From the NCBI GenBank assembly GCA_034440615.1, contig JAOTOM010004580.1, positions 1 to 64,000 of the forward strand: a DNA stretch of 64,000 nt. Direction: 5' to 3'. The position numbers were made by a program, and so were the translations under genes. The notes under the pieces are model-generated. The model did no database searches and was not told the DNA's origin. It worked only from the letters and a program-made list of their open reading frames with translations. The stretch is from Ashinkailepas kermadecensis. Taxonomy: Eukaryota; Arthropoda; Thecostraca; Neolepadidae. Of this stretch, positions 1,261 to 26,489 are shown piece after piece. Each line of letters starts with the position of its first letter. Position 1 is the stretch's first letter.

Positions 1261-1515
1261 ACCGGCTGCTGTCCCGAACAGCTGTACACCACACCTGGAG
1301 TGCGGTACTCGCCTGAGGTGGACGGCCCAGCCGGTGTCCCAACCACAGACCGGCTGCTGTCCCGAACAGCTGTACACCACACCTGGAGTGCGGTATTCGC
1401 CTGAGGTGGACGGCCCAGCCGGTGTCCCAACCACAGACCGGCTGCTGTCCCGAACAGCTGTACACCACACCTGGAGTGCGGTACTTGCCTGAGGTGGACG
1501 GCCCAGCCGGTGTCC
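1261..1515. repeat. 88-bp tandem repeat, about 3 copies, containing a 5' splice site
   Basis: Three units start at 1261, 1349 and 1437 (spacing exactly 88 bp). Read on the minus strand, each unit carries the last residues of the neighbouring MMD exon followed by its donor region. The true exon copy has CTCAG|GCAAGT; the other copies have GCGAGT and GCGAAT at the same place. The array is therefore a tandem amplification of an exon end plus intron start. Confidence 0.9.
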
Positions 1516-1611
1516 GGCACCTCCTTCAGTACTAGCCACGGCGTGTAGGACGAGGCGATGAACACGTAGATCATCGCACGGTCCACCCGATGAAAGATCT
1601 CCCTCCACACA
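1489..1611 (-). CDS. MMD: MMD-like (PAQR10/11) internal exon, third membrane segment
   Basis: This exon encodes about 41 residues reading VWREIFHRVDRAMIYVFIA and then SSYTPWLVLKEVP. In the PAQR/CREST family this segment holds the invariant aspartate of the third membrane helix (here in HRVDRAM) and the SY-PWL motif. MMD-type proteins are Golgi or endomembrane seven-helix proteins linked to Ras signalling; that is family knowledge, not seen here. The acceptor is CTCACCAG|T and the first base completes an AG carried from the previous exon, so phases match. The donor is AG|GCAAGT, a good GC-AG type. The exon is followed by an 88-bp array that copies its end and preceded by a 37-bp array ending about 18 bp from its acceptor. 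Confidence 0.85.
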
Positions 1612-1629
1612 CTGGTGAGACAAGAGCGC

Positions 1630-3815
1630 GTCAGAGGTGTCGGGGCCCCTCAGCAGTACAGGGCGCGTCAGAGGTGTCGGGGCCCCTCAGCAGTACAGGG
1701 TGCGTCAGGGGTGTCGGGGCCCCTCAGCAGTACAGGGCGCGTCAGAGGTGTCGGGGCCCCTCAGCAGTACAGGGTGCGTCAGGGGTGTCGGGGCCCCTCA
1801 GCAGTACAGGGCGTGTCAGAGGTGTCGGGGCCCCTCTGCAGTACAGGACGCGTCAGAGGTGTCGGGGCCCCTCAGCAGTACAGGGCGCGTCAGAGGTGTC
1901 GGGGCCCCTCAGCAGTACAGGGCGCGTCATGGGTGACGGGACCCCTCAGCAGTACAGGGCGCGTCAGGGATGTCGGGGCCCCTCAGCAGTACAGGGCGCG
2001 TCAGAGGTGTCGGGGCCCCTCAGCAGTACAGGGCGCGTCAGAGGTGTCGGGGCCCCTCAGCAGTACAGGGCGCGTCAGAGGTGCCGGGGCCACTCAGCAA
2101 TACAGGGCGCGTCATGGGTGACGGGACCCCTCAGCAGTACAGGGCGCGTCAGAGGTGTCGGGGCCCCTCAGCAGTACAGGGCGCGTCAGAGGTGTCGGGG
2201 CCCCTCAGCAGTACAGGGCGCGTCAGAGGTGTCGGGGCCCCTCAGCAGTACAGGGCGCGTCAGAGGTGTCGGGGCCACTCAGCAATACAGGGCGCGTCAT
2301 GGGTGACGGGACCCCTCAGCAGTACAGGGCGCGTCAGAGGTGTCGGGGCCCCTCAGCAGTACAGGGCGCGTCAGAGGTGTCGGGGCCCCTCAGCAGTACA
2401 GGACGCGTCAGAGGTGTCGGGGCCCCTCAGCAGTACAGGGCGCGTCAGAGGTGTCGGGGCCCCTCAGCAGTACAGGGCGCGTCAGAGGTGTCGGGGCCCC
2501 TCAGCAGTACAGGGCGCGTCAGAGGTGTCGGGGCCCCTCAGCAGTACAGGGCGCGTCAGAGGTGTCGGGGCCCCTCAGCAGTACAGGGCGCGTCAGAGGT
2601 GTCGGGGCCCCTCAGCAGTACAGGGCGCGTCAGAGGTGTCGGGGCCCCTCTGCAGTACAGGACGCGTCAGAGGTGTCGGGGCCCCTCAGCAGTACAGGGC
2701 GCGTCAGAGGTGCCGGGGCCACTCAGCAATACAGGGCGCGTCAGAGGTGTCGGGGCCCCTCAGCAGTACAGGGCGCGTCAGAGGTGTCGGGGCCCCTCAG
2801 CAGTACAGGGCGCGTCAGAGGTGTCGGGGCCCCTCAGCAGTACAGGACGCGTCAGAGGTGTCGGGGCCCCTCAGCAGTACAGGACGCGTCAGAGGTGTCG
2901 GGGCCCCTCAGCAGTACAGGGCGTGTCAGAGGTGTCGGGGCCCCTCAGCAGTACAGGGCGCGTCAGAGGTGTCGGGGCCCCTCAGCAGTACAGGGCGCGT
3001 CAGAGGTGTCGGGGCCCCTCAGCAGTACAGGACGCGTCAGAGGTGTCGGGGTCCCTCAGCAGTACAGGGCGTGTCAGAGGTGTCGGGGCCCCTCAGCAGT
3101 ACAGGGCGCGTCAGAGGTGTCGGGGCCCCTCAGCAGTACAGGGCGCGTCAGAGGTGTCAGGGCCCCTCAGCAGTACAGGGCGCGTCAGAGGTGTCGGGGC
3201 CCCTCAGCAGTACAGGGCGTGTCAGAGGTGTCGGGGCCCCTCAGCAGTACAGGGCGTGTCAGAGGTGTCGGGGCCCCTCAGCAGTACAGGGCGCGTCAGA
3301 GGTGTCGGGGCCCCTCAGCAGTACAGGGCGCGTCAGGAGGTGTCGGGGCCCCTCAGCAGTACAGGGCGCGTCAGAGGTGTCGGGGCCCCTCAGCAGTACA
3401 GGGCGTGTCAGAGGTGTCGGGGCCCCTCAGCAGTACAGGGCGCGTCAGAGGTGTCGGGGCCTCTCAGCAGTACAGGGCGCGTCAGAGGTGCCGGGGCCAC
3501 TCAGCAATACAGGGCGCGTCATGGGTGACGGGACCCTCAGCAGTACAGGGCGCGTCAGAGGTGTCGGGGCCCCTCAGCAGTACAGGGCGCGTCAGAGGTG
3601 TCGGGGCCCCTCAGCAGTACAGGGCGCGTCAGAGGTGTCGGGGCCCCTCAGCAGTACAGGGCGCGTCAGAGGTGTCGGGGCCCCTCAGCAGTACAGGGCG
3701 CGTCAGGGGTGTCGGGGCCCCTCAGCAGTACAGGGCGCGTCAGAGGTGTCGGGGCCCCTCAGCAGTACAGGGCGCGTCAGAGGTGTCGGGGCCCCTCAGC
3801 AGTACAGGGCGCGTC
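1630..3815. repeat. 37-bp minisatellite, about 59 units
   Basis: The unit has the core CAGAGGTGTCGGGGCCCCTC with the perfect palindrome GGGGCCCC. Variants change single bases (for example GTGCCGGGGCCAC, GTGACGGGACCCC). Because 37 is not divisible by three and the unit lacks plus-strand stops, all three forward frames stay open for hundreds of codons; these are not credible proteins. The array lies in the intron of the MMD-type gene and ends about 18 bp from the exon 3' splice site. Confidence 0.97.
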
Positions 3816-4196
3816 AGACACACACAGTGCCACGTCAGCGACATGCAGGCACCTCAGGGCTACATGACCATGTCTGGAACTCACCGGCACAGAAGGATGC
3901 ATGCCACGTCAAGGAAACATAGCGTAGAGAAGCTAGATCCGGGTTCTCGGAATCAGTTCTCGAAGAAGTTGAATTCTGGAGTTCCGGGTCTTCTGTGGCT
4001 TGGGTGACATAGTCCAGGGAAACAACGTCTGGACCGCGAATACCACGTTCAATCAGAACTGCTGCATATTTGGTTCGGAAGTGCTACTTGCTATTGAACT
4101 ACCCTATGTTAAATTGGCTTTGATAGGGTAGCGGGCGACAGCCGGGAGCGTGCCCAGCTGCTGACGTGCACTCAGGGTGACTCTGCTCACAGCAGC
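3816..4196. other. Unique spacer inside MMD intron
   Basis: This is intronic DNA between two minisatellites. I see no coding potential or known element in it. Confidence 0.5.
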
Positions 4197-4630
4197 GTGG
4201 CAGTCTACCCTCGTCGATCCCTCGTGGCAGTCTACCCTCGTCGATCCCTCGTGGCAGTCTACCCTCGTCGATCCCTCGTGGCAGTCTACCCTCGTCGATC
4301 ACTCGTGGCAGTCTACCCTCGTCGATCCCTCGTGGCAGTCTACCCTCGTCGATCCCTCGTGGCAGTCTACTCTCGTCGATCCCTCGTGGCAGTCTACCCT
4401 CGTCGATCACTCGTGGCAGTCTACCCTCGTCGATCACTCGTGGCAGTCTACCCTCGTCGATCACTCGTGGCAGTCTACCCTCGTCGATCACTCGTGGCAG
4501 TCTACCCTCGTCGATCCCTCGTGGCAGTCTACCCTCGTCGATCCCTCGTGGCAGTCTACCCTCGTCGATCACTCGTGGCAGTCTACCCTCGTCGATCACT
4601 CGTGGCAGTCTACCCTCGTCGATCACTCCT
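4197..4630. repeat. 27-bp minisatellite, about 16 units
   Basis: The unit begins GTGGCAGTCTACCCTCGTCG and varies mainly at one position (ATCCCTC versus ATCACTC). The unit is a multiple of three, so stop-free frames run through it on both strands; the periodic 9-residue peptides are a by-product. It lies within the MMD intron. Confidence 0.95.
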
Positions 4631-4707
4631 CAGCGACCCGTGAACCGTGACCTCTCACTGCCAACGGCGAGCCGCAGCTAACTCACCGGAACCGAGTACC
4701 GTACCAG

Positions 4708-4743
4708 CCGCCTCCACAGGGCGGTCCCACCCTGTGCAGGCGG
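4708..4743. repeat. 14-bp inverted repeat (hairpin)
   Basis: CCGCCTCCACAGGG at 4708-4721 faces CCCTGTGCAGGCGG at 4730-4743. The arms pair with one mismatch around an 8-base loop. No function is evident. Confidence 0.7.
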
Positions 4744-4869
4744 TTCTGCCCTACATCCACCAATATACCATATTACAAGGCTACACATTTATGATGAAAG
4801 TTGACACATGTTAACTGATAGGGGAGGGAGTGGATTCATCACTGAAAAAAAATTACGGATGGCACTTCG

Positions 4870-5045
4870 AAGAACCTCGAGTTCGTTTACGACGCACTCA
4901 ACCGCGAGGCCATATAGCGTCGCCAACGTCCCACGCCGATTGACCGCGGGTGGACTCGCCAATTCCGCCGGCTATGGGATTCGAGTCTCACGGTGGAGAG
5001 TCGCACGTCCTACCGACGGAATTACCGCCGCCGCCTCGAATGGCA
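4870..5045 (-). mobile_element. tRNA-derived SINE, diverged minus-strand copy
   Basis: Read on the minus strand this has a tRNA-like head with a B-box-like GACTCGAATCCC, then the body shared with the copies near 9.4, 19.4 and 46.5 kb (ATCGGCGTGG, GGCGACGCTATATGG), then a TCGTAAA end. It is the most diverged of the clear copies. No target-site duplication was identified. Confidence 0.75.
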
Positions 5046-6400
5046 CTTTACGGGATGCAAAGCGCAGATCTATGTTCATCGAAGTCCATTTCAAGTGAGC
5101 CCCTCAAACGATAAATATTCTGAATAAGCATTTTGCGATTTCTTGACATCCAAGCATCCACTAGTCTAGGCCCAACCATTGCCGCGCAGTACGACACTCG
5201 AGTCTGCTGTTGTATCGATGACGACCGGTGGCAACCGACGTAAATTGGTGCATTTGCGTTACATTCCGACAGATTTAGTCCAGATTTAGGCTCACAATGC
5301 GCGGAACGTCGTAGAGTTTTCGGGGAGGGAGTAAGTGCGAGCTCAACACTTCAATTGATGTGGTGCACACCCCTTAACTATATGAAACGGGTACACACGA
5401 TTGGATGAAGCTCCGGAGGAAGATCCTGTCCTTACTGTACATTAATGTGCGTATGTTACAGCAATACACATGTATTTCTGGACCAGTTTCTAGCTATGTG
5501 TTGGGCGGTAGTATTCTACTTCTCTGCGAAATGAGAACACAGTAAGCCTTTTCGCAAGAGAAGCGAAACATGGCCATCCGTCATTCTGATTACGGGCTCA
5601 AGCGAGGCTTGTGGTGGTAGATGACAGTGCTACTTACATATTTCCTCACGGAGAGTACGGAAGACAAGAGAAAAGAAAGCAAGCTGCAGGTGTGTTATTA
5701 ATATAATAACAGACCAAAACTGACAGATATCTCTACAAAATCACCACAAGCTGCGTCAGCACCGGGTTACAAAGGAAGCAATGTTGCAAAATTGGGAGCA
5801 AACCATGTGAAAAGAACAGCTTCTCAAAGAACAAAGCCATGTGCAACAGGAGGACAACTCTGCACAAATCATAGCCATGCTTATTTAGAACATAGTTACC
5901 AACAAGACTTGCCCAAAGAACACTGAAACCACGTACGGTCAGGCGTTATGGTCCTCAACAGAGGCGACAACAGCAGCACAACATTGGGGGCAGTGCAGGG
6001 GGCAGTGTCCCTCAGACAGATGCAAATAAATGCCATCTAAGTTATGCTCATATGCCTGATGGATGAATGTTGCTAAATGTAATCAAGTAATGGGCAGTTA
6101 AAATAATGTTCTGAACTCTCGAAGTCGAGGAATCGCAAGTGAACCAAATGAAAGGCATGAGCTTGTAAAACATTCGTCATCATTTGGATAGCACTCGATT
6201 CCCCTGGTCAATGATTATTAAAAAGGCATAGCATGCGTGACCGGAACACACTTGTATCCACACATCAGCTACACACCGACACTGAGCGAGCTCCAGTTAA
6301 ACACACAGCGCAACTGTCAGACTAAGTATCACGACGGACAAATTGTACTTGCCACTATCCAGCGGCCGAAGGCTATGCAGGTGCAATGGCAGCGCCTCAC
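5046..6400. other. MMD intron, no recognisable feature
   Basis: This is mixed-composition DNA with no exon-like reading frame or recognised repeat. It is the part of the intron immediately downstream, in gene orientation, of the exon at 6401-6558. Confidence 0.5.
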
Positions 6401-6558
6401 CTCTTCCCGCACACGAACGACACCAGATGGAACACGGTCGACACGGAGAAGAGAAGTATCAGCGCCGCTCCGTACACCACACTGGCGTACGCTTCGTAGT
6501 ACACGTCCGACTGCTGATACAAACTGACGGCGCACGAGATGCTGGGGAAAATCCACAC
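6401..6558 (-). CDS. MMD: MMD-like (PAQR10/11) internal exon, first and second membrane segments
   Basis: This exon encodes 52 codons plus two bases. It starts VWIFPSISCAVSLYQQ and ends LLFSVSTVFHLVSFVCGK. The S-x-x-x-H motif (STVFH) of the second membrane helix is the family signature, thought to bind metal with the later Asp and HxxxH. The acceptor is CTCCCACAG|GTGTGG and the donor AAGAG|GTGAGG. The exon follows the 8.43-kb exon in phase 0 and hands two bases to the 1.5-kb exon. Immediately upstream, in transcript direction, is an array whose every unit repeats this acceptor and the first exon bases. The match in length and spacing to MMD-type proteins is close; the exact paralogue is not resolved. 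Confidence 0.88.
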
Positions 6559-7205
6559 CTGTGGGAGAAAACAGTACAGGAGAACAATGAATCCACACCT
6601 GCGGGAGGTAACACAGTACAGGAGGACAAGACATCCACACCTGTGGGAGATAACACAGTACAGGAGGACAAGAAATCCACACCTGTGGGAGATAACACAG
6701 TAGAGGAGAAGAAGAAATACACACCTGTGGGAGATAACACAGTACAGGAGGACAAGACATCCACACCTGTGGGAGATAACACAGTACAGGACAAGAAATC
6801 CACACCTGTGGGAGATAACACAGTACAGGAGGACAAGACATCCACACCTGTGGGAGATAACACAGTACAGGAGGACAAGAAAGCCACACCTGTGGGAGAT
6901 AACACAGTACAGGAGGACAATAAATCCACACCTGCGGGAGATAACACGGTACAGGACAAGAAATCCACACCTATGGGCGATAACACAGTACAGGAGAAGA
7001 AAAATCCACACCTGTGGGAGATAACACAGTGCAGGATGACAAGAAATCCACACCTGTGGGAGATAGCACAGTATAGGACAAGAAATCCACACCTGTGGGA
7101 GATAACATAGTACAGGAGGACAAGAAATCCACACCTGCGGAAGATAACACAGTACAGGACAAGAAATCCACACCTGCGGGAGATAACATAGTACAGGAGG
7201 AAAAG
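6559..7205. repeat. About 42-bp minisatellite, roughly 15 units, each with a copy of the 3' splice site
   Basis: On the minus strand each unit reads through TATCTCCCACAG|GTGTGGATT, the same sequence as the true acceptor and exon start at 6558. I count about 15 extra copies between 6590 and 7180. Units are mostly 42 bp, with some about 39 bp that lack three bases. A periodic 14-residue plus-strand frame is a by-product. The array is directly continuous with the exon, with no unique intron sequence between them. Confidence 0.95.
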
Positions 7206-8067
7206 AAAGCGAGCGCCAGGCAGACAAAGAGACGTACCCTTTCCTGGCCCAATTCTCCTATGATCAATATAGATACATCAGTTGATATTAGTTGTTGAGA
7301 AAGAATGCCCTAAGATAACAAGCTCTGCATTTGTAAAACAATTTCCAGGGACTAATAGCAAGGTTGGTATGTTGACCCAAAATGATCTCTGGTGACTTCA
7401 CTATCGGCCAAAATGCAACATTAAATATGCTTCGGGCTTTCTGTCATCGGCGCTTTCCAACGGTAGCTTGAATTTTATCATAGCGTACCGATTTCCAAAG
7501 TTAGTAGCGGGTGGATTTCAAGAGATAAATAGCCTGGCCGAGGGTGGACCCCTCGACCCGGCGAGGGCGGATTTGCCGGCTCGGCGATGGCTGAGGTTGG
7601 TTCACAGCCAGGATTCCATTGAGCCCTTAAAGACGAGTCATACTCGGCTCATGCTGACTGACAGGTAGTCATACGGACTACCTGATGTCGGATCACACCA
7701 GCGTACAAATTCGGAAACGTGGTTACATCAAAAGTCGGTTTGTATTTACATCCCCACGAGTCCATATTAATCGCGTACGAGATCCACAATATGCAGGCTC
7801 CGATAATATTGCCTGCCTTCACCTTCGAATGTGCAGTGTTATTAGATACTCAACAGAACAAAGCTGGTATTTCACCATTGCATACACATTTTATTTGAAG
7901 TTCACATGCTTGGACTGCTGTGCAAATAAGATGTGATATTCATACACAATGAAAAATTACATGAAAAAAGAACTTAAATTAACTTAGTTGTAATCTTCAA
8001 ATGCACCTGTCAAAAGGTTTAAGTTCATCTGATATGAAGGCAAAATGAATTTGAGCACAATGGGTTG
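7206..8067. other. MMD intron, unassigned
   Basis: A GC-richer patch at about 7540-7700 has the look of a degenerate dispersed element, with short inverted strings around GGTAGTC. The rest is AT-rich. No exon is supported. Confidence 0.4.
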
Positions 8068-8340
8068 CATTGAAGCCCGCACTGGCGTCCCGAGTGCTCC
8101 CACTAACATGGGGTGTAACGTCTTGTGGGCATGTCATTGAAGCCCGCACTGGCGTCCCGAGTGCTCCCACTAACATGGGGTGTAACGTCTTGTGGGCATG
8201 TCATTGAAGCCCGCACTGGCGTCCCGAGTGCTCCCACTAACATGGGGTGTAACGTCTTGTGGGCATGTCATTGAAGCCCGCACTGGCGTCCCGAGGGCTC
8301 CCACTAACATGGGGTGTAACTTCTTGTGGCCATGTCATAC
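8068..8340. repeat. 67-bp tandem repeat, 4 copies
   Basis: Four nearly identical units begin CATTGAAGCCCGCACTGGCG, the last slightly diverged. The array lies in the MMD intron, about 95 bp downstream, in gene orientation, of the donor at 8433. Confidence 0.95.
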
Positions 8341-8433
8341 TCGTGTTCCCACTGAGCCCCTGACAGAGGTCACACCTATTCCGCACTGACCCACAGAGGC
8401 GGGGTCACAGCTAGTGCAGCAGCCAATACGCAC

Positions 8434-8521
8434 GCCGTGTGTCACGATGTTGGCCACGTGCTCCACGTCGGTAGGCACGTACGGCCCTCCGTCGCTGACA
8501 CGGCCGTTTTTCCACTGGATC
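8434..8521 (-). CDS. MMD: MMD-like (PAQR10/11) N-terminal exon
   Basis: This exon is 88 bp: one carried-in base plus 29 codons starting IQWKNGRVSDGGPYVP and ending TDVEHVANIVTHG. The EH-x-AN-x-x-THG block is the conserved entry to the first membrane helix of MMD-type PAQR proteins. The acceptor is TCGCTCGCAG|G and the donor GGC|GTGCGT. Joining it to the 6.4-kb exon gives THG-VWIFPSI without phase conflict, which matches the family. The initiator exon was not found; it should lie at higher coordinates on the minus strand. Confidence 0.85.
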
Positions 8522-8729
8522 CTGCGAGCGACAGTGACGTCATCAGGTGCTGCGGCCGTTACCTCATCGGGTTCCGTCGACGTAGCGGAATCTACAGGAG
8601 GCGTTACACAGCGCCGGGTTAACAGACGTGTTTGCCGGAGGCCGACTTGCGCTCATGACATCATCGGTAGGTTGGCAGGGTCGTGATGTATTAACGATAC
8701 TGGAAAACAGTGACGATCAGGTTGCAGAA

Positions 8730-9235
8730 AACCGGAGGCGTCGGGGAAAGAACGGAGGAAAATCGAAAAGAACGGAGGCGTCTGGAAAAGAATGCAGGCG
8801 TACAAGAAGGAAAGGTGGCGTCCGGGAAGGAATGTAAAAGTTTGGGAAGGGATGGAGGAGTCGGGATAGGAACGGCGTAGTCTCGGGATATGAACGGCGG
8901 ACTCTCCGGAAGAATGACGGAGTCTGGAGAGGAATGGCGGAATCTGGGGAGGAATGGGAGAGTCTGGGAGGATCGGGGAGGAAATCTGAAGTCTGGCCAG
9001 GGACCGGTGTCTGGCGAGGAATTGAAGAGTCTGGTAATAGAGAAGCTTGGGGACGACCAGGGGAATCTGTGGTAGAACTGTGAAGTCTGCGAGGAATGAA
9101 GGAGTCTGGGGAGAAACGGAGGAGTATGTGGAAGAACATATGAGTCTCGACAAGAAACGGATAGTCTGGGAAGGAAACAATGTGTCTGGGAAGGAACCAC
9201 GGTGTCTGGGGAGGATTGGAAGAGTATGCAATGGG
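8730..9235. repeat. Degenerate purine-rich minisatellite
   Basis: Imperfect units of about 25-30 bp on the theme GGAGTCTGGGGAGGAATGG fill this stretch. The same motif continues on the opposite strand from about 9236, so this is the left arm of an inverted pair of arrays. Confidence 0.8.
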
Positions 9236-10510
9236 CTATTTCGTTCATTCCCAGACTCCTCTCTTTATCCAAAAACTCTCCCGTTCCTCACCGGGCTCTT
9301 CGGCTTCTCACAGACACCTATCCGACCCCAGAATCCTTGGTTGGTTACTTTTTACCCCTAGACCACAGGGACGAGTGGTCTAGGGGTAAGATGCTCGTCT
9401 CACAATCGAAAGATTGTGGGTTCGAGTCTCACCTGTCGCTACTCTTCGCCCGCGACCAATCGGCGTGGGAGATTGGCGACGCTATATGACTCAACGGTCG
9501 ACGTGTCGTAAAACCAATAACCAACCCCTAGACCACTCGTCCCCTCCCCAGATTCCTTAGTTTCACCCAGGGCTCCTCAGATCTGCTCAGGCTCTCACAT
9601 TCCTCCCTATATTATCCAGTTCTTCTTTAGCCCCCCGCCCCCCATAATTTTCCCAGACACTACCATTCCTCTTCAGACTCCTGTTTCTTCCAGAACCCAT
9701 TGGCTTCTCTTTAGACCCCCATTCCTCTGCAGACTCCTCCATCCCACAGACCACTCAGTTCTTTCACACATGTTTCAGTTCCTGTCCAGATTCCCCCATT
9801 ATTTCCATGACTCCTATGTTCATCCAAGACTCATCCGATTCCTCCCCGGACTCCCCTGTTCCTTCTCAGATTCCTCAGCTCCTCCCTAGAGTCTTCAGTT
9901 TCTCCCTAGACTCATTAATTCCTCTAGATTCATCCGACCGTCCTCAGTATCCTCCATTCCTCAAGAGACCCCTGGTCCTCTCCAGACTCCTTCAAATTCC
10001 CTGTTCCTCTCCAGACTGCCTTCCTACCCAAGATTATCCGACCGCCTCTCCTCGATCCTCCCCAGACTCCCGTTCCTCCCACTCGTTCAGACTCCCTTGT
10101 TCTTCCTTTGTTCATCTTCAGACTCCCAAGTTCTGCCCTAGACTTCTGTTCCTGATCAGGCTTCAGCTTTTCTTCAATCTTTTCTGCCTCTGTCCAGACT
10201 CCATCTATACCCAGACACATCTGTTCCGTTCCAGACTCCTCTGCTCCTTGCCAGATTGCCCAGACTCATTTGTTCTTCCACAAATCCCTCGGTTCCACTC
10301 CAGCCTCCTCAATTCCTTCCGAAACTCCTCCATCCCCCAGACTCCTCAGTTCCTCCCAAGACAGTTTCTTACCAATACTCTCCATTCCTCCATTCCTGGA
10401 TATTGGTGATGTCATCCAAATATTGTGACACTTCACTGGTTCCTGCTAGGACGCGTCCACTCCTCCTCAGATTCCGCTGCTCCTCCACAGACCCCTTCCC
10501 AAACTCCTGC
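9236..10510. repeat. Degenerate pyrimidine-rich minisatellite (inverted partner)
   Basis: Imperfect units on the theme TTCCTCCCCAGACTCC run for about 1.2 kb and are the complement of the purine-rich array to the left. A tRNA-derived SINE interrupts it at about 9371-9541. Confidence 0.8.
9371..9541 (+). mobile_element. tRNA-derived SINE copy
   Basis: The head GGTCTAGGGGTAAGATG (A box) and GGTTCGAGTCTC (B box) are clear RNA polymerase III promoter elements. They are followed by the body CGACCAATCGGCGTGG and an AACC-type tail. Unusually, the 16-bp head ACGAGTGGTCTAGGGG at 9371 recurs inverted at 9526-9541, as if a second SINE start were joined to the tail. Confidence 0.88.
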
Positions 10511-11903
10511 AAGTAAGGAGTGGGAGTGGAAGGCCAGGAGTTTGTGGGGACATCACATTGGAGTTAGTGCCCCTCTCCCCCAACATACGGTCCTGGCTTG
10601 GTCAGGTTGCACCCACAAATAAATTTTGGTTGTGCCTGTACCAACATGTTGTGCAAGACTGTTGAAAACAGCAGGTTGTGCCTATCAATTTGAGCTGAAC
10701 ACCAAATACTGGTGATACCCTTGCTCCTACTACACCCCTATGCCCACTATGCTATGCCTTTGTGGCTGTTTATGCCTATAAGAGCATGGTTTCTTTCAGT
10801 CAGAGTATAATGTACCAATGTCAAGAAAATAAAGAAGCTGAAGATGGTTAAAGGAAAATGCTTTGGCTGCCAATATTTTCTCCAAGATTTGGCAATGCTC
10901 TTTCTACCAAAAATAACACATAGAATGAAAATAACTGCAAGGTAGGCAAAATACCTAAAATTGCATGGATCACAAAAGAAGGCATGTTTTCCACACATGT
11001 AGCAAAAAATAGGCAGGCAAAAATTATTCCCCTACAAATTGTTTGATTGATTATTTCAGCTTAAGGGAGTGTTGACTAAAAGGTCATTTAGCACCCAGTC
11101 CCCAACAAAAGCTATCATCTGTACCTCCTATGCGAACATCTTGGGTGCACCAGTGTAATCAGAATATACTGTGTGATCCACGTCTGTCCACTCACTGCTT
11201 CAGCATGCTGCAGTAGTCCAGGATCCAGTACAAAACATTACTGTTTTGATGATTTGCCATTGTCTATCAGTGACCTGCAAAATACAACACACATTAATAC
11301 ATTGAGATGAATAGTTAGGAAACCAAAACTGGAATTAAATCCATCATACCCTGTCTTGTAAGCATGCTTTTTCATTGAACTCAACATACACATATTTTAC
11401 ATTTCTTCAGGTCAGAAGTAGGTGACTAACTAGTAGTTGATACTTCTATTTTTTTACAGCAGCTATGATACTTAATTTTCAAACACTAGCGAAATGAGCC
11501 AAGCCAATATAAACCAATATTAACATCTCCCAACTAAAATTTATCATGGAAGTTGAAGCCTTACCATCTAAATCACAAACTGCACAGCTATGAACAGCTT
11601 GGTTTTGGACGTATGATTCTGTAATTTTGTGTTATTTTTGCAGACTTCAATGGATGGAAATATCACTACCTGCCCTACACTCCTGCAGCTTCCTTCCACT
11701 ACAAATTGCAATAACTCAATCACCAAATACACAAAATATTTTACACAAGACCACGGACATGACAACACAGAGAGCAGTACCATGTATATCACCTAAATTA
11801 AGTGATTGGGTAACCACAGGATGTCTCATAACTATATATTATGATGTTCTTATGAAGTAAAACTACCTGCTTTCACATGGTATCAATCAAAACCATGCCA
11901 GTT
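10511..11903. other. AT-rich DNA with a diverged SINE fragment
   Basis: Around 11040-11100 the string CTTAAGGGAGTGTTGAC and the following bases resemble the second SINE family seen at 31.8 kb. The rest is AT-rich and has no supported gene. A minus-strand frame near 10.75-11.0 kb encodes a hydrophobic peptide, but it lacks coding-like composition. Confidence 0.45.
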
Positions 11904-11987
11904 TTATAGGATCATGTCGGCACGAATGATCAATTCTGGTCGAAGCGCCCTAAAGCCCAAATAACTAAATAATTATAGGATCATGTC
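11904..11987 (+). mobile_element. 54-bp SINE tail insertion with 15-bp target-site duplication
   Basis: TTATAGGATCATGTC occurs at 11904-11918 and again at 11973-11987. Between them lie 54 bp ending GCGCCCTAAAGCCCAAATAA and CTAAATAA, the 3' end of the second SINE family. This is a severely 5'-truncated retroposed copy. Confidence 0.88.
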
Positions 11988-14245: not shown

Positions 14246-14289
14246 TTGCCCGCCTGGTGCATATAGGTGTGGATTTTTTTCCCTCCAGC

Positions 14290-15795: not shown

Positions 15796-16249
15796 AAATG
15801 AAAGGGGTGTCATTGGAAAGCACTCCACAAGTAGGGCCAGAAACCACAAAAAAATGTTACCCCTCAAACAAAAATTACATCACTAGGGGGTCTATGTTCT
15901 CACAACTGACTTCATGTGTTTGGCCCTGGGAAGTTCATTTTGAGGAGATATGAAAAAGAAAATAATTTTGAATCAGAAAAGGAAGGCAAAATCGACCATG
16001 GCCCTATAATTTTTGTGGACTAAAAAATCAAAATTTTACTTTATTTTTTGAAATTTCAAAATTTTGCATATTCAATTTTCTTTTTCTAATGGGTAGAGTG
16101 GACTGAAAGATGTTGTTTGAAGTCAGCTTGCTCTCATACAAATGCTTACATTAGACAGAATCTTTTATTTTAGCGATAATGGTCAAATACGGAAAATCAG
16201 GGTCGTACTAGAAACCGGATAGAATCCGTGACGTCGATGCTGACCTCAC
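15796..16249. other. AT-rich flank of the LINE
   Basis: Nothing recognisable is present. Confidence 0.4.
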
Positions 16250-16314
16250 CTCGTGTGTGACGTTCAGCAGAAATGCTGGCAGGAGGGAGGGCAGGCTCAC
16301 GAACAGGATCGGGT
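16250..16314 (-). CDS. Unidentified exon candidate
   Basis: The minus-strand reading DPILFVSLPSLLPAFLLN followed by VTHE ends at a strong donor (GAG|GTGAGG). Third positions are mostly G or C, as in the recognised host exons. A possible acceptor is GGGAACAG|ACC; the exon could also extend to about 16340. I do not recognise the protein. It is a single short candidate in AT-rich DNA and may be chance. Confidence 0.35.
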
Positions 16315-18631
16315 CTGTTCCCGTGTTGGGAAGAACAGTTACGTTTATGCCGCAGCTCAGACAACAAACACCGCTTTCTTGTTGATATGATATAGAGGTT
16401 CAATTATTATTAAAGAAGTGGGTAGGTAGGTAGGTATGTTTCCGCCTGTTTATTAGTAGAAAGAAGGCTACCTAATATTGGAATATTCACAAATACACCC
16501 ACCAATGTTGATGCACCATAAGTATGGTGTAACTTTGTTGTTTATGCACCATAAGTATGGTGTAACTTTGTTGTTTATGCACCATACATGTGGTATGAAT
16601 GTTTGAACAGGACAAATGCTTGCATTTTTGTTGGATGGATTGTATTGGATTTACATCTCATTTTAGATAACTCCACATGCTTGGTGTGTGCTTAGCATGC
16701 TGGTTCCATATGCACCATTTGCATATTGAAATGTGTGATTTTGATGTTAAATTGATACATTTATTTTATTACTGGTCTGGTAAGAAATTAACATTACTGG
16801 TTAAGTTAAAACATTACTGGTCTGTGTAAGAAATTGCTTTTGTGTTCAAGACATTGCTTGCCCTGGATAAGAAAGTGCACTGAAGTACATATGCTTGATT
16901 GCATCACATCTACTGATGTTTTATTAGATGTGTAGAATATGCTTTAAGATCTTGCTAATATTCTTCATTCTTGGAAATTATTATTCAGAACTTATCATAT
17001 GTAAACAACATATTCAATAAATATTTCTTTCATGATTAGCCAGACTGCAGTGTGGCACTTTCAACAAGATCTTGTTCGGGCAGGGTGGGAGGCCAGAGGT
17101 GTGGCTGGCACAGCAATTGGTGCAGCAACAGGTTCCTGGTGTGGACATTGGACAGTCCTGAACCCTGTCAGCAATGTCGATATAGCCTATGTCTGCAATC
17201 TGTATAATTGTTTGAACTTTAAAGAACATTGAATACAATTTGTCACATGTTTGGTTCAATTAAGGATATCAATAGTGGCCAGCCGACGTCAGACTGATGT
17301 CTGACATTTCACTCCCCAGCCGATAGCGGGCCCCTAGCGCCCCGACATCAGCCTGACGTCGGCTACATGTCGACTGGGTGTCGGTTGCATGTCAGCATTG
17401 GCAGACATTCCACTCCCTAGCTGACCGAGGACCGCTGTCAGCATGTTCACTGGGAGGTTATTAGATGTGGTCAGGTATACTCCCGAGTACGACATTTCCG
17501 ACAAAGGAAACCTTGATGCTGTCTTACCCGGATTGATGAATGTGTGTTTCAATGCTGGATGAAAGGGGCTGAGTGGTGTCTTTGCAAGGTACCATCAAAA
17601 CTACATATAGAAGACCATGACACCATGGCTGGAGATCTTGGGTCGGTTGTAGGGGTCGGAACCACTGGTTTCGTACCTTGGTAATGTTGGCTCTTGCATA
17701 GTTACCAGCTTATTGTAGCCTAATAATTTGTTCCTTTGATTTATCTGGGCTCAAAAATATCGCAACCATATGCATCCAAACTTGAACTGGAAAATACCTA
17801 CATCTCCCCATTATCAAGCACCATGACGTTGATGGCTCGAAGCAACATGGCGTGTGCTGTATGAACGTGTTCACCACAATTGCTGCTAATGCTAGTAACG
17901 TCACACAGATCCTGCAGATTTCGTCTGAATTTTTGTTCTCGCAGGATCTGGATGTTTTTCCAGTTCCTGTGAGGTTTGAATGGTGAATTGGCAGATCTGA
18001 TCCAAAAGTTTGATGTGACACGGACAATTTTTGACAGTATCCAAGCTCCAAATGCACCCTTCGTCAACCACTTTGTGAGACTCATTTTGGCGTTACAGGG
18101 TAGCACAGGATTTGAGATGGTGAAGTTCTCAAGTTTACCGATGGTTCCTGTTTGTTCAATGATCCAACTGCTCTTTCACAAAGATTTTAGCTGAAAAATG
18201 CACAGACGGTACTTCAATTAAGTTATGTATGTAGTGCTTCAACTACATGGAATTCGTTGCTATAATACATTTACAAAATATTGTTGCTGATTTGTCCTTC
18301 CTCTCATATCTACCAATGTGTCTTGTTTTAGACATTATGTCTTGTTCTTGTTAAGTGTGTTTCATTAGCAGGTATCCACTCGTGCACATATCCGCATAAA
18401 TATCCAAGATCAACTAGATGGTTTTGTCAAAGAATGTATCTTGTCTATCACTGTCACTTTGAATTCAGTAGCTAATGTCTTCTGGTGGATCCACAAGTAT
18501 ATCTTCCCCCAATAAATGATTAAGGACATGATGAGGCGATGTTGATGATGCGGACAATTTGACAGCAATGCATGGAGTTTGATTTTGTTTGCTATATGCG
18601 TGTCCGACCATGTGTGCGACACTGTTGCCAG
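16315..18631. other. Intergenic or first-intron DNA
   Basis: A 42-bp near-tandem repeat (GCACCATAAGTATGGTGTAAC) occurs two and a half times at about 16515-16590. A GC-rich stretch with repeated GACGTCGGCT-like strings lies at 17280-17420. The RING and first zinc-finger exons of ZNF598 would be expected here or further left, but none was found. Confidence 0.4.
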
Positions 18632-18747
18632 GTGTTCACCTCGGAGCGCAAACTGTACACCCGAGGTACGCTGGCATTGCATCGTCGGAAGGGCGACCCG
18701 GACGACTTCCATCGCGGTCACCCGCTCTGCGAGTTCTGCGAGAAACG
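18632..18747 (+). CDS. ZNF598: ZNF598 exon (zinc-finger region, exon 1 of those visible)
   Basis: ZNF598 is an E3 ubiquitin ligase that recognises collided ribosomes and ubiquitinates small-subunit proteins. This exon encodes 38 codons, VFTSERKLYTRGTLALHRR through HRGHPLCEFCEK, plus two bases. The ER-x-Y-TR, HR-x-x-GDPDD and HRGHPLC-x-FC blocks are diagnostic. The two cysteines of the C2H2 finger are here and its histidines are in the next exon. The acceptor is TTGCCAG|G and the donor AAACG|GTACTT, chosen because it gives ...EKR-MYMDNDEL when joined to the 21.46-kb exon. The RING part lies upstream and was not found. Confidence 0.92.
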
Positions 18748-19413
18748 GTACTTCTATCCGGCGCCGGTAGATGGCGATAGCGGCACGTGGGTCAGTGGGA
18801 TCTTGTTTGGATTGTGAGGTGTTTATATCTATGCTTGTCAGATACTGGATATTTTTACCCACACAGGAAGGAGAACGTCTGTTATGGATGCTTTCAGTAT
18901 TCTAATTTCCTTTCAGTGACACTTGGCAAATTTAAAAAAGCTGTGTGGTACCTTCAGTGTTCTTTTTATTCGTTGCTTGACTGAAACCAGTTTTTTTCTT
19001 TTAGTATCCCCTTTATTTCATCAGTCGTTCAGTTACGCATTTACACCGTTCTTCATCAGAACTGTTGGCCATAGCCCACACAAGGCAGTTATATAAATTT
19101 ATGGACGTTTAGTTTTATTAACTGAAAGTGACATGACAATGTTGAAAACATGCACACGGTGGTCACTGGGCAGGCATTTTTGTGCTAAGTAAGCTCCGAC
19201 GTTCTTTTTCTTGGTAATGCAACCGGATCATTCTGTGAAGGTGCCATTCACTGGCATATTTTCTTGTACACCAGTCACTCAGTGGGCCTTGTTCGCCATA
19301 GTGCTGCTGTTGTGCTATGGTGAGTCTGGGGACGGGAGCATGGCACGGCTTGACTTGGCCACACGGGCCTCCTGAGACGCGGCCGCAACACTGTGCTGTC
19401 GCCTCCCAGGAGT
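18748..19413. other. ZNF598 intron
   Basis: No feature is recognised before the SINE. CCTCCCAGGAGT at 19402-19413 is the left target-site duplication of that SINE. Confidence 0.5.
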
Positions 19414-19611
19414 GAGGGGGGCACGACTGGTCTAGGGGTAAGATGCTCGTCTCACAATCGAAAGATTGTGGGTTCGAGTCTCACCTGTCACTACTCTTCG
19501 CCCGCGACCAATCGGCGTGAAAGATTGGCGACGCTATATGGCTCAACGGTCGACGTGTCGTAAAACCAATAACCAACCAATAACCAACCAACCAACCAAC
19601 CTCCCAGGAGT
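19402..19611 (+). mobile_element. tRNA-derived SINE with 12-bp target-site duplication
   Basis: CCTCCCAGGAGT flanks the element at 19402-19413 and 19600-19611. Inside are the A box (GGTCTAGGGGTAAGATG), the B box (GGTTCGAGTCTC), the body with CGACCAATCGGCGTG, and an AACC-repeat tail. It is nearly identical to the 9.4-kb copy, so it is relatively young. Confidence 0.93.
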
Positions 19612-19639
19612 TGACCTGCTGCCACAGTGTTAAAATAAT

Positions 19640-21195
19640 GATTTGTCGTTAGGTGTGAGATGTCGAAACGAGTAGGGGAGGATGTCGAAATCGCCATGGA
19701 AATAATGCTGCTTAAAATACTTTGCTCCTTGAAACCCAGTTTTGAGACGATTGCATGCATATAACTACCCATTTTCCATGGTTTGAGAGGTAACTAATTT
19801 GGGGATATCGACATCAACGATTACGATACAAACATCTATACTATAAACGTTTATTGCATACCATAGTACTTCATAGGTAATCCCTTCACCTGGAATTTCA
19901 CTAGGAATTGTTCATCATCACAATCCCGGATCCGTTATGGTGAGCATAAGCATGATACGTATCAACGGGATACTATTAGAAACGAGGCATGACAACCTCA
20001 CAGGCACGCACCGAAAGGCACGATGTCGATACTTATTTGGGAGGGATGTCGATTGAGCGTTCAGTAAGTGGTATATACCGCCCTATTTCACGAATAATTT
20101 ATCACTGTGTTGCCATCGTGACCTCGCTGCGCACTCGCTGGTGCAGCCAAGTACTCGTGTGCGACTGGGTCGTACGGTTGACATGTGCGCACAGTGTTAA
20201 CATACTGATACCTCGTTAGGTGTGAGAGGTCGAAACGAGTACAGTAGGATGTCGAAATCGCCATGCAACTAATGTTATGAAAATATGTTAGGTCCTGCAT
20301 AGCCAGTTTAGAGACAATTGTGTACATATCACTGTTCCTGCTTTGCGTGTTTGGGAGGTACCTAAGTTGGGGACACCGCTATGAACGATACAAACACCTA
20401 TGCTATAAACTGGCATTGTATAACATAGCACATGGTCGCTACATGACCAATGAAGTCGATGCGCCCTAAAGCCCAAATAACTAACTAACATAACATAGCA
20501 CCTCATATGAAATCCCTTGACTTACAATTGCGATACGGGATGTTCGTTATCTCGATACCGGGTCTGTTATGGTGAGCATAAGCATGATGCTTGTAAACGG
20601 GATGCAGTTAGAAACGATAAATGAACCGTGTGCGCACCTCCTACACGTGCTCCTAGGTTGCTGATGCGAATCTTTGCACTTGCTCGACCATTTTGCAGTG
20701 TTAAAATAATGTTTTTTCGTTAGGTGTGAGATGTCGAAACTAGTACAGTAGGATGTAGAAACCTGCCATGGAAGCGTGTCAATTAAAATATCGTTTGCCC
20801 TTCAAGTTCCATTTGAGCCAACAGTGTACACATCAGTGCACGTTTTTTAGTCTAATTTTGGAGATACCTAATATATGGATACCTATGTTGGCGATAACGA
20901 TTGCAATGCCATGTTATCAACAGATCGCATTGTTTAACACACCACGTCATAGATAATCTCTGTGTTTGGAATCGTGTCACGAGATGCTTGTGTAATCAAT
21001 CCTTAATGGTGAGCACAAGTATGCTATTTATACGCGAAATACTCTTAGGAACGTGTCAAAGAGACCTCATAGGCACACATCAACAAGCACGATGCCGATA
21101 CGTCCTTGGAAAAGATGTCCATTCAGTGCTCAGAAAGTGGTATATTCCACCCTATTTCACGAATAATTTATACTGCCGTTTTGTCAGTGACGTGT
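19640..21195. repeat. Three diverged tandem copies, about 0.45-0.55 kb each
   Basis: Landmarks recur in order: GGTGAGCATAAGCATGAT, a TCGTTAGGTGTGAGATGTC block, a CACCCTATTTCACGAATAATTTAT block, and a run with CTATGCTATAAAC. The copies start near 19790, 20345 and 20830 and are well diverged. The middle copy carries the short SINE tail insertion at 20432-20489. Confidence 0.75.
20420..20501 (+). mobile_element. 58-bp SINE tail insertion with 12-bp target-site duplication
   Basis: ATAACATAGCAC at 20420-20431 and 20490-20501 bounds a 58-bp insert ending GCGCCCTAAAGCCCAAATAA and CTAACTAAC. It shares its 3' end with the 11.9-kb insertion. It is truncated to nearly the tail alone. Confidence 0.9.
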
Positions 21196-21199
21196 AATC

Positions 21200-21460
21200 A
21201 CTGAGTGCTTGCCTTGACCGGCGTGTGCGAGTTCCGGCAGACCGTTTCACCGGGGTGTGCGGGTTCTGGCAGGCCCTTTGACCCGGTGTGCGGGTTCCCG
21301 CAGACCGTTTGACCTGGCATGCAGGGTCTGACAGACCATTTGGCCAGGATGTGCAGGTTCTGACAGACCATTCGATCGGGGCGTGCGAGATCTGGCAGAC
21401 CGTTTGAGTGGGGTGTGCGGACTCGGGCAGACGTGTTTTGACCGGGTGTTCGGCTTCCAG
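21200..21460. repeat. About 33-bp minisatellite, about 8 units, the last being the 3' splice site
   Basis: Units on the theme GACCGGGTGTGCGGGTTCTG followed by GCAGACC repeat at roughly 33-bp spacing. The final unit, GGTGTTCGGCTTCCAG, ends at the true acceptor of the ZNF598 exon at 21461. Every unit ends in an acceptor-like CAG. Confidence 0.88.
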
Positions 21461-21556
21461 CATGTACATGGACAACGACGAGCTGTTCATGCATCTGCGT
21501 CGCAAACATTTCTATTGTCACCTGTGTGAAACGACCGGCAAGCAGCTCTTCTACGA
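21461..21556 (+). CDS. ZNF598: ZNF598 exon 2 (zinc-finger region)
   Basis: One carried-in base is followed by 31 codons, MYMDNDELFMHLRRKHFYC and then HLCETTGKQLFY, and two bases. It supplies the histidines (MHLRRKH) of the finger begun in the previous exon and the C-x-x-C of the next. The MDNDEL motif is strongly conserved in ZNF598. The acceptor is CTTCCAG|C and the donor TACGA|GTGAGC. It is flanked on both sides by minisatellites, one of which includes its acceptor. Confidence 0.93.
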
Positions 21557-21569
21557 GTGAGCGACCCTG

Positions 21570-21672
21570 TTTACCCGACCCGGCCTGATCCGATGACCCA
21601 ACCCGGCCTGATCCGATGACCCGACCCGGCCTGATCCGATGACCCGACCCGGCCTGATCCGATGACCCGATT
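21570..21672. repeat. 23-bp tandem repeat, about 4.5 copies
   Basis: The unit ACCCGGCCTGATCCGATGACCC or a close variant starts about 14 bp after the donor at 21556. It is near-perfect and therefore recent. Confidence 0.95.
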
Positions 21673-22484
21673 TAACGTAGACTCGCCTTTTTTGTCAGCC
21701 GAGGCCCGGCAGACCGCCACAAGTGATTCGTTTGCAAGTGTCGTGAATGGAGTTGGGCTGACTGTACCAAGCCACTCATGGGGAGACTTGGTTTTGCCTG
21801 GTGGACACTTTTCTTTGTATTACAATATCTGTCCTGGTTTGCTGTTCCTTCACAAGATGTTAGGGAATCGAACTGGGTGGCCTGATCTGGAAACTGTTTG
21901 TTCAGGTCTTGACATATTGAGATGTGACGTGTTTTGTGTCCAGTCAAGCTAGACATACCTGCACGTAGTCTGCTCTTTCCTTTGTGTTGGTCGTGGTGAT
22001 CGTTGAAGAGTGACCGAGTTATGCGTTCTCAAGGTTTCGCGCCGGGTGAGAGCAGTTCAACAAAATGGTGCTTCTAGCTTGGTTGTTAGAGTCACCTTTA
22101 ATGCGATGCAAAGGATGAGTTCCCCGTGTCTTACATATTGGTTTGCAATCGCCCGGTCGGAAGTTCAGGAGGGCTGCTTAGTAGGCAGAGCAACACCAAA
22201 GCAGTGCCGATGGTGTGTGTCCACCAAGAGCAGTCTCGGGAGGCGAGAGGACCCGAACTCGCGATTCCGACATCGCCCTCTCCTGAGACCGGGGACAGCA
22301 TTTTACATCTCAGCCACACACACACACACACACCATATCCCATATGAGTGTTCACTTCTGGCAAGAACAAAGAGAGTGCCGGGTTTTTGTTTGCATTGCA
22401 TTGTCATGGAATACCTATTGACGATCTTTGTCAATCTACGCTAACCTCTTTTCCTAGTAGGTGTATACTATATATATGTATATG

Positions 22485-22555
<71 letters not shown>

Positions 22556-23265
22556 GTGTGGTTTACTAGCGACTATCGGCACTAATATGTGGCATGCTAC
22601 TCTGTGATAAGCCTCCAATGTCATCCCCAAACGCTGACACCCCCTGCTCTAACCCCATCACCACACGCGCTCCGTTCACGGAGACCCCTGGGCCTGGAGC
22701 CTGTACTGACGACATGCACACACCGTCACACTGTGGGCTTGTTAGGCTGCACATGATGATGGTGTTGCAGATTCTTCTATCACTTTGTCTGTTCGATCCA
22801 AAATAGCCCCTTCACGTGACCTGTATTGATCAGACCTCGCCACTGGATCTATTGCGATTCATCTGGAATCCAAACTCGTACAAGGCCACTAGTCGAGACC
22901 AACTTAACCTTGCACTGCTGCTGTCACACTTCAACTAGCCAGTACCTCACCCATCACCGCTCGAGGTTAGCTCGACGACCAACGCCCAAAATCGACTGCT
23001 CCAGAACAAAACCGTATTCGTCCCATTCGCGCCACATACGATTCTGACGTTCCACAGCGCCACCTATTGTTGTCCGGCACAACCACTACCTGGCCTGTCG
23101 TCGCTAGGCCATAATTCTGAATAGATGATTCACTAAATAACTAACTTCGTCTTTGACCCCGGTAATGGCTTCAACACTAGTCTCCCCTCACCTTCCCTCC
23201 CTCCCGCCGTGCCCGGTGTGATTGCGGGGTACCCCGTGTGACCGCGCGCGTCGACTGGGCCGCAG
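21673..23265. other. ZNF598 intron with microsatellites and a SINE-like fragment
   Basis: About 22165-22320 read on the minus strand has TGGCTGAGATGTAAAATG and GAGTTCGGGTCC, resembling tRNA A and B boxes, so it may be a third, older SINE type. A CA tract lies at 22317-22333 and a TA tract at about 22468-22550. No exon was seen. Confidence 0.5.
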
Positions 23266-23375
23266 CGACTACGAGAGTCTGGCACATCACTTCCACACGG
23301 AGGACTTCCTCTGCGAGCAGGGCGAATGCGGCGAGAAGAAGTTCGTCGTTTTCCGTACTAACATCGATATCCAAG
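23266..23375 (+). CDS. ZNF598: ZNF598 exon 3 (zinc-finger region)
   Basis: The exon is 110 bp with matching phases on both sides. It reads DYESLAHHFHTEDFLC, then EQGECGEKKF and VVFRTNIDIQ. The H-x-x-x-H of one finger and the FLC-E-x-G-x-C start of the last finger are conserved in ZNF598. The acceptor is GGCCGCAG|C and the donor CCAAG|GTGAGT. A short tandem repeat starts about 10 bp after the donor. Confidence 0.93.
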
Positions 23376-23462
23376 GTGAGTTGGACACCGGTAGGTGGTG
23401 CACTGGTGGGATGGGTACCAGTAGGTGGTGTACTGGTGGGCTGGGACCAAGTAAATGGTGTT
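23376..23462. repeat. About 30-bp tandem repeat, 2.5 copies, next to a donor
   Basis: Units on GTAGGTGGTGCACTGGTGGG begin near 23391, just inside the intron after exon 3. The third unit is partial (AAGTAAATGGTG). Confidence 0.8.
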
Positions 23463-23600
23463 AAACCTGCCTCGTGCTGCTGTATATCTCAGTGCAACGC
23501 ACCACCGCGCCGCGGCATAACCCATACCCAGCGAAACCAAGCGCCACCCCGTGCTGCCGTGAAGCCATAGCCAACGGAGCCGACATTTGCCGTGCCACAG

Positions 23601-23741
23601 CACACAAGGCGGCGGAGCACTCTGACAACAAGAGTCGGTGCCAGCCGCGGCAGGAGCACACGTAGCGCTTGACTTCAGCTCCGATTCGGCCGGCAGGCGG
23701 CGCCGCAACGGCCGCGACCGGAGCGACGTCTACGGTGGCAG
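23601..23741 (+). CDS. ZNF598: ZNF598 exon 4, with an apparent one-base loss
   Basis: It begins AHKAAEHSDNKSR, the conserved continuation after the last finger, then PRQEHT in one frame. A TAG follows at 23663 in that frame. Shifting by one base restores VALDFSSDSAGRRRRNGR and DRSDVYGG to the donor. Family members have an R-Q-x-x-x-[IV]-x-L-x-F-S block exactly across the break. The acceptor is GTGCCACAG|C and the donor GGCAG|GTGCGG. The simplest reading is a one-base deletion near 23655-23662, real or from assembly. The exon end and donor are amplified in the array that follows. Confidence 0.85.
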
Positions 23742-24545
23742 GTGCGGTCATGGTATGGTTTCCGGGTCCAGTCATACGGCGACAGGTACGGACCTCACTA
23801 CGGCGGCAGGTACGGTTACGGTATGGTGTTATGGTCCAGTCCTACGGCGGCAGATACAGTCATAGTATGGTGTCCTGGTCCAGTCCTACGGCGGCAGGTA
23901 CGGACCTCACTACGACGGCAGGTACAGTCACGGTATGGTGTTATGGTCCAGTCCTACGGCGGCAGGTACGGACCACACTACGGCGGCAGGTACGATCACG
24001 ATATTGTGTTATGGTCCAGTCCTACGGCGGCAGGTACGGTCATGGTATGGTGTCCTGGTCCAATCCTACGGCGGCAGGTACGGTCATGGTATGGTGTCCT
24101 GGTCCAATCATACGGCGGCAGGTACGGTCATGGTATGGTGTCCTGGTCCACTCCTACGGCGGCAGGTACGTTCATGGTATGGTGCCCTGATCCAGTCCTA
24201 CGGCGGCCGGTACGGTCATGGTATGGTGTCCTGGTCCAGTCATACGGCGGCAGGTACGGTCATGGTATGGTGCCCTGATCCAGTCCTACGGCGGCAGGCA
24301 CTGTCATGGTATGGTGCCCTGATCTAGTCCTGCGGCGGCAGGTACGGTCATGGTATGGTGCCCTGATCTAGTCCTACGGCGACAGGCACGGTCATGGTAT
24401 GGTGCCCTGATCTAGTCCTACGGCGGCAGGTACGGCCATGGTATGGTGTCCTGGTCCACTCCTCCGGCGGCAAGTACGGTCATGGTATGGTGTCCTGATC
24501 CAGGCTAATCCAGTCCGACATGACAGGTACGGACACGGCATATTG
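23742..24545. repeat. About 44-bp minisatellite, about 18 units, each with a copy of the exon 4 donor
   Basis: Each unit reads TACGGCGGCAG|GTACGGTC, then TGGTATGGTGTCCTGGTCCAG. The exon itself ends TACGGTGGCAG|GTGCGGTCA, then TGGTATGG, so the array starts in the exon and each unit includes a 5' splice-site copy. Unit length varies; a few shortened 20-24-bp units interrupt the left part. Confidence 0.95.
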
Positions 24546-25374
24546 TCCTGATCCAACCCAATCCAATCTGATCCAGTCAAACACGTGCCTGCTGCACGTG
24601 CCGCTCAGGTCAGGTTAGGTCTGGCGAATTACATGGTCTGCAAGAGCGTCTGTATACGCTCTCCCTCTGTGTGATTGCGTCGTCTGCTTCAGGACATGCA
24701 CGGACATGAATTTGATTCCATATCATGGCGGTGCCGTTACCCAGCGTGGTCAGCAGTGAGCAGGATGGTGTACCCGACGGTGGTGGATGGATGCATTCGC
24801 GGCACGATTGAATTCATGTTTGGGATCTGGGAGCTGAAGTGGAAAATGTCATTGCCATTTCATTTGGTGATGATAGTTTCCCTTCTGTGTCTGGCATCAC
24901 GAGTACCCTGTTGCACTTGTCAGTGCGTTTTGGTATTACTGTGGAAGAGCAATAGGTTTATAGTTGTTTCAAACAGCACCATCCAAGGAAAAGGCAAGGA
25001 CGATTTCTTGGGGAGGATAATGTGGATGGAAAAAATGCAGGACAAGGCTGTTTTCCAACCCTGCCTCACGTTCTATATGTCACCATACAGAGAGATTTAG
25101 TGATGTGTCATCTTAGGGTCGAAACGTGTTCTATCTTGTGGGACTGCTGTGATCATGAAGAGCCAGAACGTGATTTGCGAAATATATCAGCTTGGAGGTG
25201 ACCACGGAAACCAATTAGTTGTTGTTGAACATTCACCGCACCACCTTCCCCCTGTACTTCTCGTATCAAAGCACCATATGCTCTGACTCCGACGCGTTTT
25301 TTTTAGAACACGTTGCTGGAGACGACTCCACAGCATTGCAGAATGTGAAGTATCGCTGCTGACCAGTTGACCAG
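24546..25374. other. ZNF598 intron, no supported exon
   Basis: A plus-strand frame of about 140 codons follows an acceptor-like TGCTTCAG near 24692. Its composition is not coding-like and it has no family match that I recognise. Confidence 0.45.
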
Positions 25375-25490
25375 TTGGGAGAGATGACCGGCTTCTCTCA
25401 CCTCCGACGGGAGCTGACCCCCGACCCTCAGCCTGGAGAGATGACCGGTTTCTTTCCCCCAGACGGGAGCCGGCGCCGGACCCTCCGCCA
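25375..25490. repeat. 57-bp tandem duplication spanning a 3' splice site
   Basis: GAGAGATGACCGGCTTCTCT at about 25378 and GAGAGATGACCGGTTTCTTT at about 25435 start two copies. Each includes a pyrimidine stretch and a GACGGGAG exon start. Only the second copy has a clean CCCCCAG|ACGGGAG acceptor. Confidence 0.8.
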
Positions 25491-25594
25491 CGGCCGTCGA
25501 CGCCTCCCGCGCCGCCCAGTGTGAACACGAACAGCACGCAGGAGTTCCCGACCCTGGCTGGAGAAAGAGCCGGCGGCGCCGAGCTCAGCGGCAG
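25463..25594 (+). CDS. ZNF598: ZNF598 exon 5, first acidic FP-T-L motif
   Basis: The exon is 132 bp: one base, 43 codons and two bases. It reads REPAPDPPPRPSTPPAPPSV, then NTNSTQEFPTLAGERAGG. Short acidic [DE]-FP-x-L motifs in proline-rich linkers are a feature of the ZNF598 C-terminal half. The acceptor TTTCTTTCCCCCAG|A is strong and the donor is GGCAG|GTCAGT. A second donor copy (CCAAG|GTCAGT) lies about 39 bp downstream. I am less sure of this exon than of the finger exons because the linker is poorly conserved. Confidence 0.75.
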
Positions 25595-25879
25595 GTCAGT
25601 CGAGGTCGCCGGCTCGCGCTCAGCACCGCCAAGGTCAGTGTCGTGCCGCGACCGTCGTGTCATGGTTTGCGGGTGATGCATCTCTCCAGTAATGCAGTAA
25701 TGCAGTCACTCGTGCTCTGCAGCTCTTGACGGCGAGACAATGTTTCCTTTGGCGTGTGCACGTGAGGTCTCCTGATGCGCCGCTGTCTCGACCTGGTCTG
25801 ACATACCTGTGTCGGCCTAGCAACCTGACGTGCCCCTGTATCGACCTCACCCCACCCCATCCCTAATCGACGTGCTGTT
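25595..25879. other. Short ZNF598 intron segment
   Basis: It contains the second donor-like GCCAAGGTCAGT near 25633, which looks like a two-copy duplication of the exon 5 end. No other feature was seen. Confidence 0.45.
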
Positions 25880-26261
25880 GTGTCAGCCATCTGCTCTGTG
25901 CCGGCCATGAACCCTGTGCGCGTGATTTACCTTTGTGTCGGCCATGTGCACTGTGCCCTGTGCTCGTGATGTACCCCTGTGTATGCCATGTACCCTGCGC
26001 TCGTGACGTACCTCTGTGCCCGTGACTTACTCCTGTACCCTGTGCCCGTGACGTACCCATGTGCCGGCCATGAACCTTGTGCCCGTGGCTTACCTCTGTG
26101 TCGGCCATGTACCCTGCGCTCGTGACGTGCCTGTGACTTACTCCTGTACCCTGTGCCCGGGACGTACCCCTGTGTCGGCCATGTGTCCTGTGCCCGTAAC
26201 TGCCCCTGTGTCGGCCATGTGCCCCGTGCCCTGTGGCCGTGACGCACCCCCGTGTCGACAG
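25880..26261. repeat. Degenerate 33-37-bp minisatellite ending at a 3' splice site
   Basis: Units on CCCGTGACGTACCCCTGTGT then CGGCCATGTA repeat about ten times with deletions. The last, GACGCACCCCCGTGTCGACAG, forms the acceptor of the exon at 26262. Confidence 0.8.
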
Positions 26262-26489
26262 GGGCTGTAACCTGGCGCAGCGTGTGGCGGTGGCCGCCGG
26301 GAAGACGGTGCGCAACGCCTCGTCTCGCGGCCGGCCGTGGTCTCCATCAACGACGACGACTTCCCCACGCTGGACGGCCGGGCTCCGGCCGTCACCGCCG
26401 CCGCCCCAACTGCCGCACCGGCCTTCAGCGCCGGCGGGCCCCGGCGGCGGCGGCGTTCCAGATTCCATTCAAAATTGGTCCACGGATAG
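26262..26489 (+). CDS. ZNF598: ZNF598 exon 6, second acidic FP-T-L motif, with an apparent one-base loss
   Basis: The first base completes a codon from exon 5, then GCNLAQRVAVAAGKTVRN follows in one frame. The next stretch makes sense only one base earlier: VVSINDDDFPTLDGRAP. A frame change around 26325-26340 would join them. The DDDFPTL motif matches the acidic FP-x-L theme of the family. In the second frame a TAG falls at 26487, inside the satellite that starts near 26459, so the true exon end is uncertain and more C-terminal coding may be missing. Confidence 0.68.

Follow-up and report, generated by a model that had tools for sequence, protein, structure and literature searches.

Tandem arrays at exon–intron junctions of MMD and ZNF598 in Ashinkailepas kermadecensis resemble the mirage minisatellites of amphioxus

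The genes MMD and ZNF598 lie on opposite strands of contig JAOTOM010004580.1 of Ashinkailepas kermadecensis (assembly GCA_034440615.1), of which positions 1 to 64,000 were analysed as one stretch (the window), and several of their exon–intron junctions are crossed or closely flanked by tandem arrays. Nine exons had been recognised in the initial annotation; six are fixed by homology (tblastn) and the other three are probable. The exons are as follows.

8434..8521, minus strand: MMD exon Ea (IQWKN...VTHG); tblastn with P0003 (E=1.9e-8) and P0001 (E=1.1e-5), splice sites placed by reading
6401..6558, minus strand: MMD exon Eb (VWIFPS...VCGK); HlyIII; tblastn with P0003 (E=6.8e-12)
1489..1611, minus strand: MMD exon Ec (VWREIFHRVDRAM...), with a GC donor; tblastn with P0002 (E=3.2e-10)
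18632..18747, plus strand: exon; tblastn with P0007 (E=8.3e-17)
21461..21556, plus strand: exon; tblastn with P0007 (E=2.1e-8)
23266..23375, plus strand: exon; tblastn with P0006 (E=4.1e-9)
23601..23741, plus strand: exon; start aligned to P0005, otherwise placed by reading
25463..25594, plus strand: exon, placed by translation
26262..26458, plus strand: exon, placed by translation

The translations of 25463..25594 and 26262..26458 appear to contain a known motif, and a sequence search of the ZNF598 exons against PDB gave no matches. A minus-strand open stretch at 16.2 kb was considered as a further MMD exon and set aside, as no tblastn match lies there among the matches listed. The arrays and duplications in and around these genes, for which no strand is assigned, are as follows.

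1256..1515: array of 3 x 88 bp, each unit containing 27 exonic bp and the Ec 5′ splice site
1626..3818: array of 59 x 37 bp, starting 14 bp from the Ec 3′ splice site, which is outside the unit
4196..4628: intronic array of 16 x 27 bp, away from junctions
6549..7208: array of 16 copies at steps of 39–42 bp, each unit containing the Eb 3′ splice site and about 10 exonic bp
8068..8338: array of 4 x 67 bp, 95 bp from the Ea donor, which is outside the unit
21214..21457: array at the 21461 junction
21573..21670: array or duplication
23387..23461: array or duplication
23730..24503: array or duplication
25378..25489: array or duplication
25897..26231: array at the 26262 junction

The observation of tandem growth at these junctions stands in part. 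Whereas at least six junctions had been described as lying inside a repeat unit, this is found at four (1489, 6558, 23741 and 25463), comprising two donors and two acceptors; the arrays at 21461 and 26262 end a few bases short of the exon and repeat no exon sequence, one of the two being ambiguous. Further arrays had been placed 10–20 bp from junctions, and three such arrays are indeed present, at distances of 11–16 bp. Splice signals are retained in many copies, with AG|GT present in all 16 copies of the Eb array and the GC of the Ec donor (1489) kept in 3/3 copies of its array. The copies within arrays are mutually divergent, and unit lengths and offsets from the junction vary freely.

Two explanations for details of the arrays were tried and rejected. 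In-frame exonisation does not hold as a general rule, since the exon-adjacent step of the Eb array is 40 bp, though most of its steps are 39 or 42, and steps of 37, 44 and 88 occur in other arrays. Selection purging decoy splice sites is not indicated either, as the decoys decay no faster.

Whether the placement exceeds chance, as the initial annotation claimed, depends on the null that is used. The sample comprised 18 arrays and 17 junctions at a locus that had been picked for its junction arrays. When arrays were shuffled anywhere, the number of junctions inside arrays (4/17) equalled expectation (4.08, p 0.59), because about one quarter of the region consists of arrays. Edges lying no more than 20 bp from a junction, at 6/18, were already above the 0.89 expected. 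In the exon-protecting nulls, array overrun into an exon was limited to 30 bp and 1500 shuffles were made per variant. With this limit, 0.61 edges were expected at up to 20 bp (1.01 with GC-matched flanks, 0.95 near exons only) where 6/18 were observed, and six such edges were reached in 0/1500 shuffles of each of the three variants. Junctions inside arrays likewise exceeded expectation (4/17 against 0.46, 0.74 and 0.73; p ≤ 0.006). At shorter distances the excess is weak or absent (1/18 edges within 5 bp, p 0.14–0.23; 2/18 within 10 bp, p 0.04–0.10). Restriction to the 13 better-fixed junctions gave 5/14 against 0.39 expected (0/4000 shuffles), and shuffling of arrays within their own introns gave 6/11 edges within 20 bp against 1.09 expected (1/5000); the 2/11 within 10 bp were equalled in 510/5000. 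The hugging of junctions by arrays is thus real locally at 20–30 bp, at a locus chosen for it.

The initial annotation knew of no named system of this kind, yet tandem duplications of exon–intron boundaries in amphioxus have already been called mirages. Mirage minisatellites are described in Adh3, the globins BflGb6 and BflGb9, troponin C and PGBD5 (PMC3087553; PMC3902484), the PGBD5 case being added and troponin C cited by the latter (PMC3902484). Their tandem units, of tens of bp to 160 bp, lie across or abut 5′ or 3′ exon–intron boundaries, and the hosts reported there are cephalochordates, with a handful of lancelet genes (PMC3087553; PMC3902484). The first of these reports describes arrays of unstable length, with AG/GT kept in many copies and regular splicing apparently undisturbed, and proposes a model of intron gain (PMC3087553). 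The MMD and ZNF598 arrays likewise have boundary-spanning units, at both 5′ and 3′ boundaries, with splice signals in many copies, and, as judged from the sequence of one haplotype, they share the structural features of mirages. Unlike in the amphioxus cases, two genes here have nine arrays or duplications at or near their junctions in some 25 kb, and five of the nine lie beside the splice site rather than across it. TTAGG-like runs in the sequence hint at an arthropod host.

Other known systems are less similar. Intron gain by tandem duplication is described for a potato RdRp case that reuses the parental 3′ site (PMC4974935) and for novel Drosophila introns (PMC2891723), and is reviewed in PMC3443670. 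There, as here, duplications cross an intron–exon boundary, but the present arrays have up to 59 copies rather than a single duplicate and are seen in the sequence of one genome. CeRep25B of Caenorhabditis elegans, an intronic minisatellite reported to be over-represented near alternatively spliced regions (PMC4039745), is a single named repeat in many genes, whereas the MMD and ZNF598 units are copied from each host junction.

The arrays are probably mirage-type minisatellites that arose by ordinary tandem duplication, were tolerated in once-short introns and grew later. Short tandem duplications, with units of about 20–90 bp, would be frequent in this repeat-rich genome, and those within genes would persist only if the exon were left whole, that is, within introns or across a junction, where one complete splice site and exon copy would remain beside the exon. 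If introns were short at the time of the first duplications, most survivors would lie on or next to a splice site. The arrays may then have grown away from the exon through slippage during replication or unequal exchange, transposons and larger repeats may have lengthened the introns, and normal splicing would proceed from the exon-proximal copy.

It is unlikely that the arrays are instead scars of intron birth. In that reading, which follows the model proposed for amphioxus mirages or that of tandem genomic duplication, part of a coding sequence was duplicated in tandem, its two copies supplied donor and acceptor, and the array consists of the leftover copies. Slight support comes from two introns that have an array at the 3′ end and interrupt stretches continuous in the proteins of relatives; comparison of the Ea/Eb donor and acceptor gave 9/15 in the right half against a control maximum of 8 (48 controls), and the pair is not the best over 30 bases. 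Chance combined with the choice of a striking locus in a repeat-rich genome fits the quarter coverage and the naive expectation for junctions inside arrays, but edge proximity at 20–30 bp far exceeds the exon-protecting and within-intron nulls, and this explanation is quite improbable. The initial interpretation, which offered junction-directed copying or local tolerance, is partly supported: tolerance in short introns suffices to explain the pattern, and a process copying DNA at splice junctions (e.g., through transcription, R-loops or spliced-RNA templates) is not needed. Such a process would accord with enrichment at donors and acceptors alike, in one gene on each strand, but is very doubtful, since array density outside the gene region is no lower than within it and unit lengths and offsets vary freely. 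Assembly artefact or misplaced exon ends are highly improbable, given copies that differ mutually, unlike duplicated reads, and the homology-fixed exons.

Elsewhere in the window, a 56-copy, 33-bp repeat (42548–44397) lies in frame within a 1145-residue minus-strand open reading frame (ORF; 42809–46246), whose product may be a mobile-element protein that includes a coding minisatellite. A homologue search with the ORF at 44–46 kb found two proteins without names (the 7994 best candidates being scored). Residues 1–609 are related to P0009 (60% identity over 47% of them) and match no Pfam family at E values of 0.1 or below. A SINE pattern gave no matches in viral_contigs. Arrays of 273–276 bp units at 38771–39919 and 49579–54159 have consensus units that look, by eye, mutually reverse-complementary, as of one satellite in two orientations. 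Open frames read by eye as gag- and pol-like, of a Gypsy-type retrotransposon, lie at 55380–58916, and the two identical 155-bp tandem copies at 35899–36208 are either a very recent duplication or an assembly duplicate. At 63118–63999 an open frame that has no Pfam match precedes a 23-bp-based array reaching the window end, and these may belong to a third gene in which an array lies close to an exon; a Pfam search of two open frames near 63.1–63.7 kb gave one sub-threshold match only.

In a host that is not a lancelet, mirages would be wider in occurrence than these amphioxus reports describe (PMC3087553; PMC3902484). With nine junction arrays or duplications, these two neighbouring genes would be a good system in which to measure the lengthening of introns and the choice of splice site where a dozen sites are nearly identical, and to learn whether new introns come from such arrays; mirages may record how introns grow or arise.
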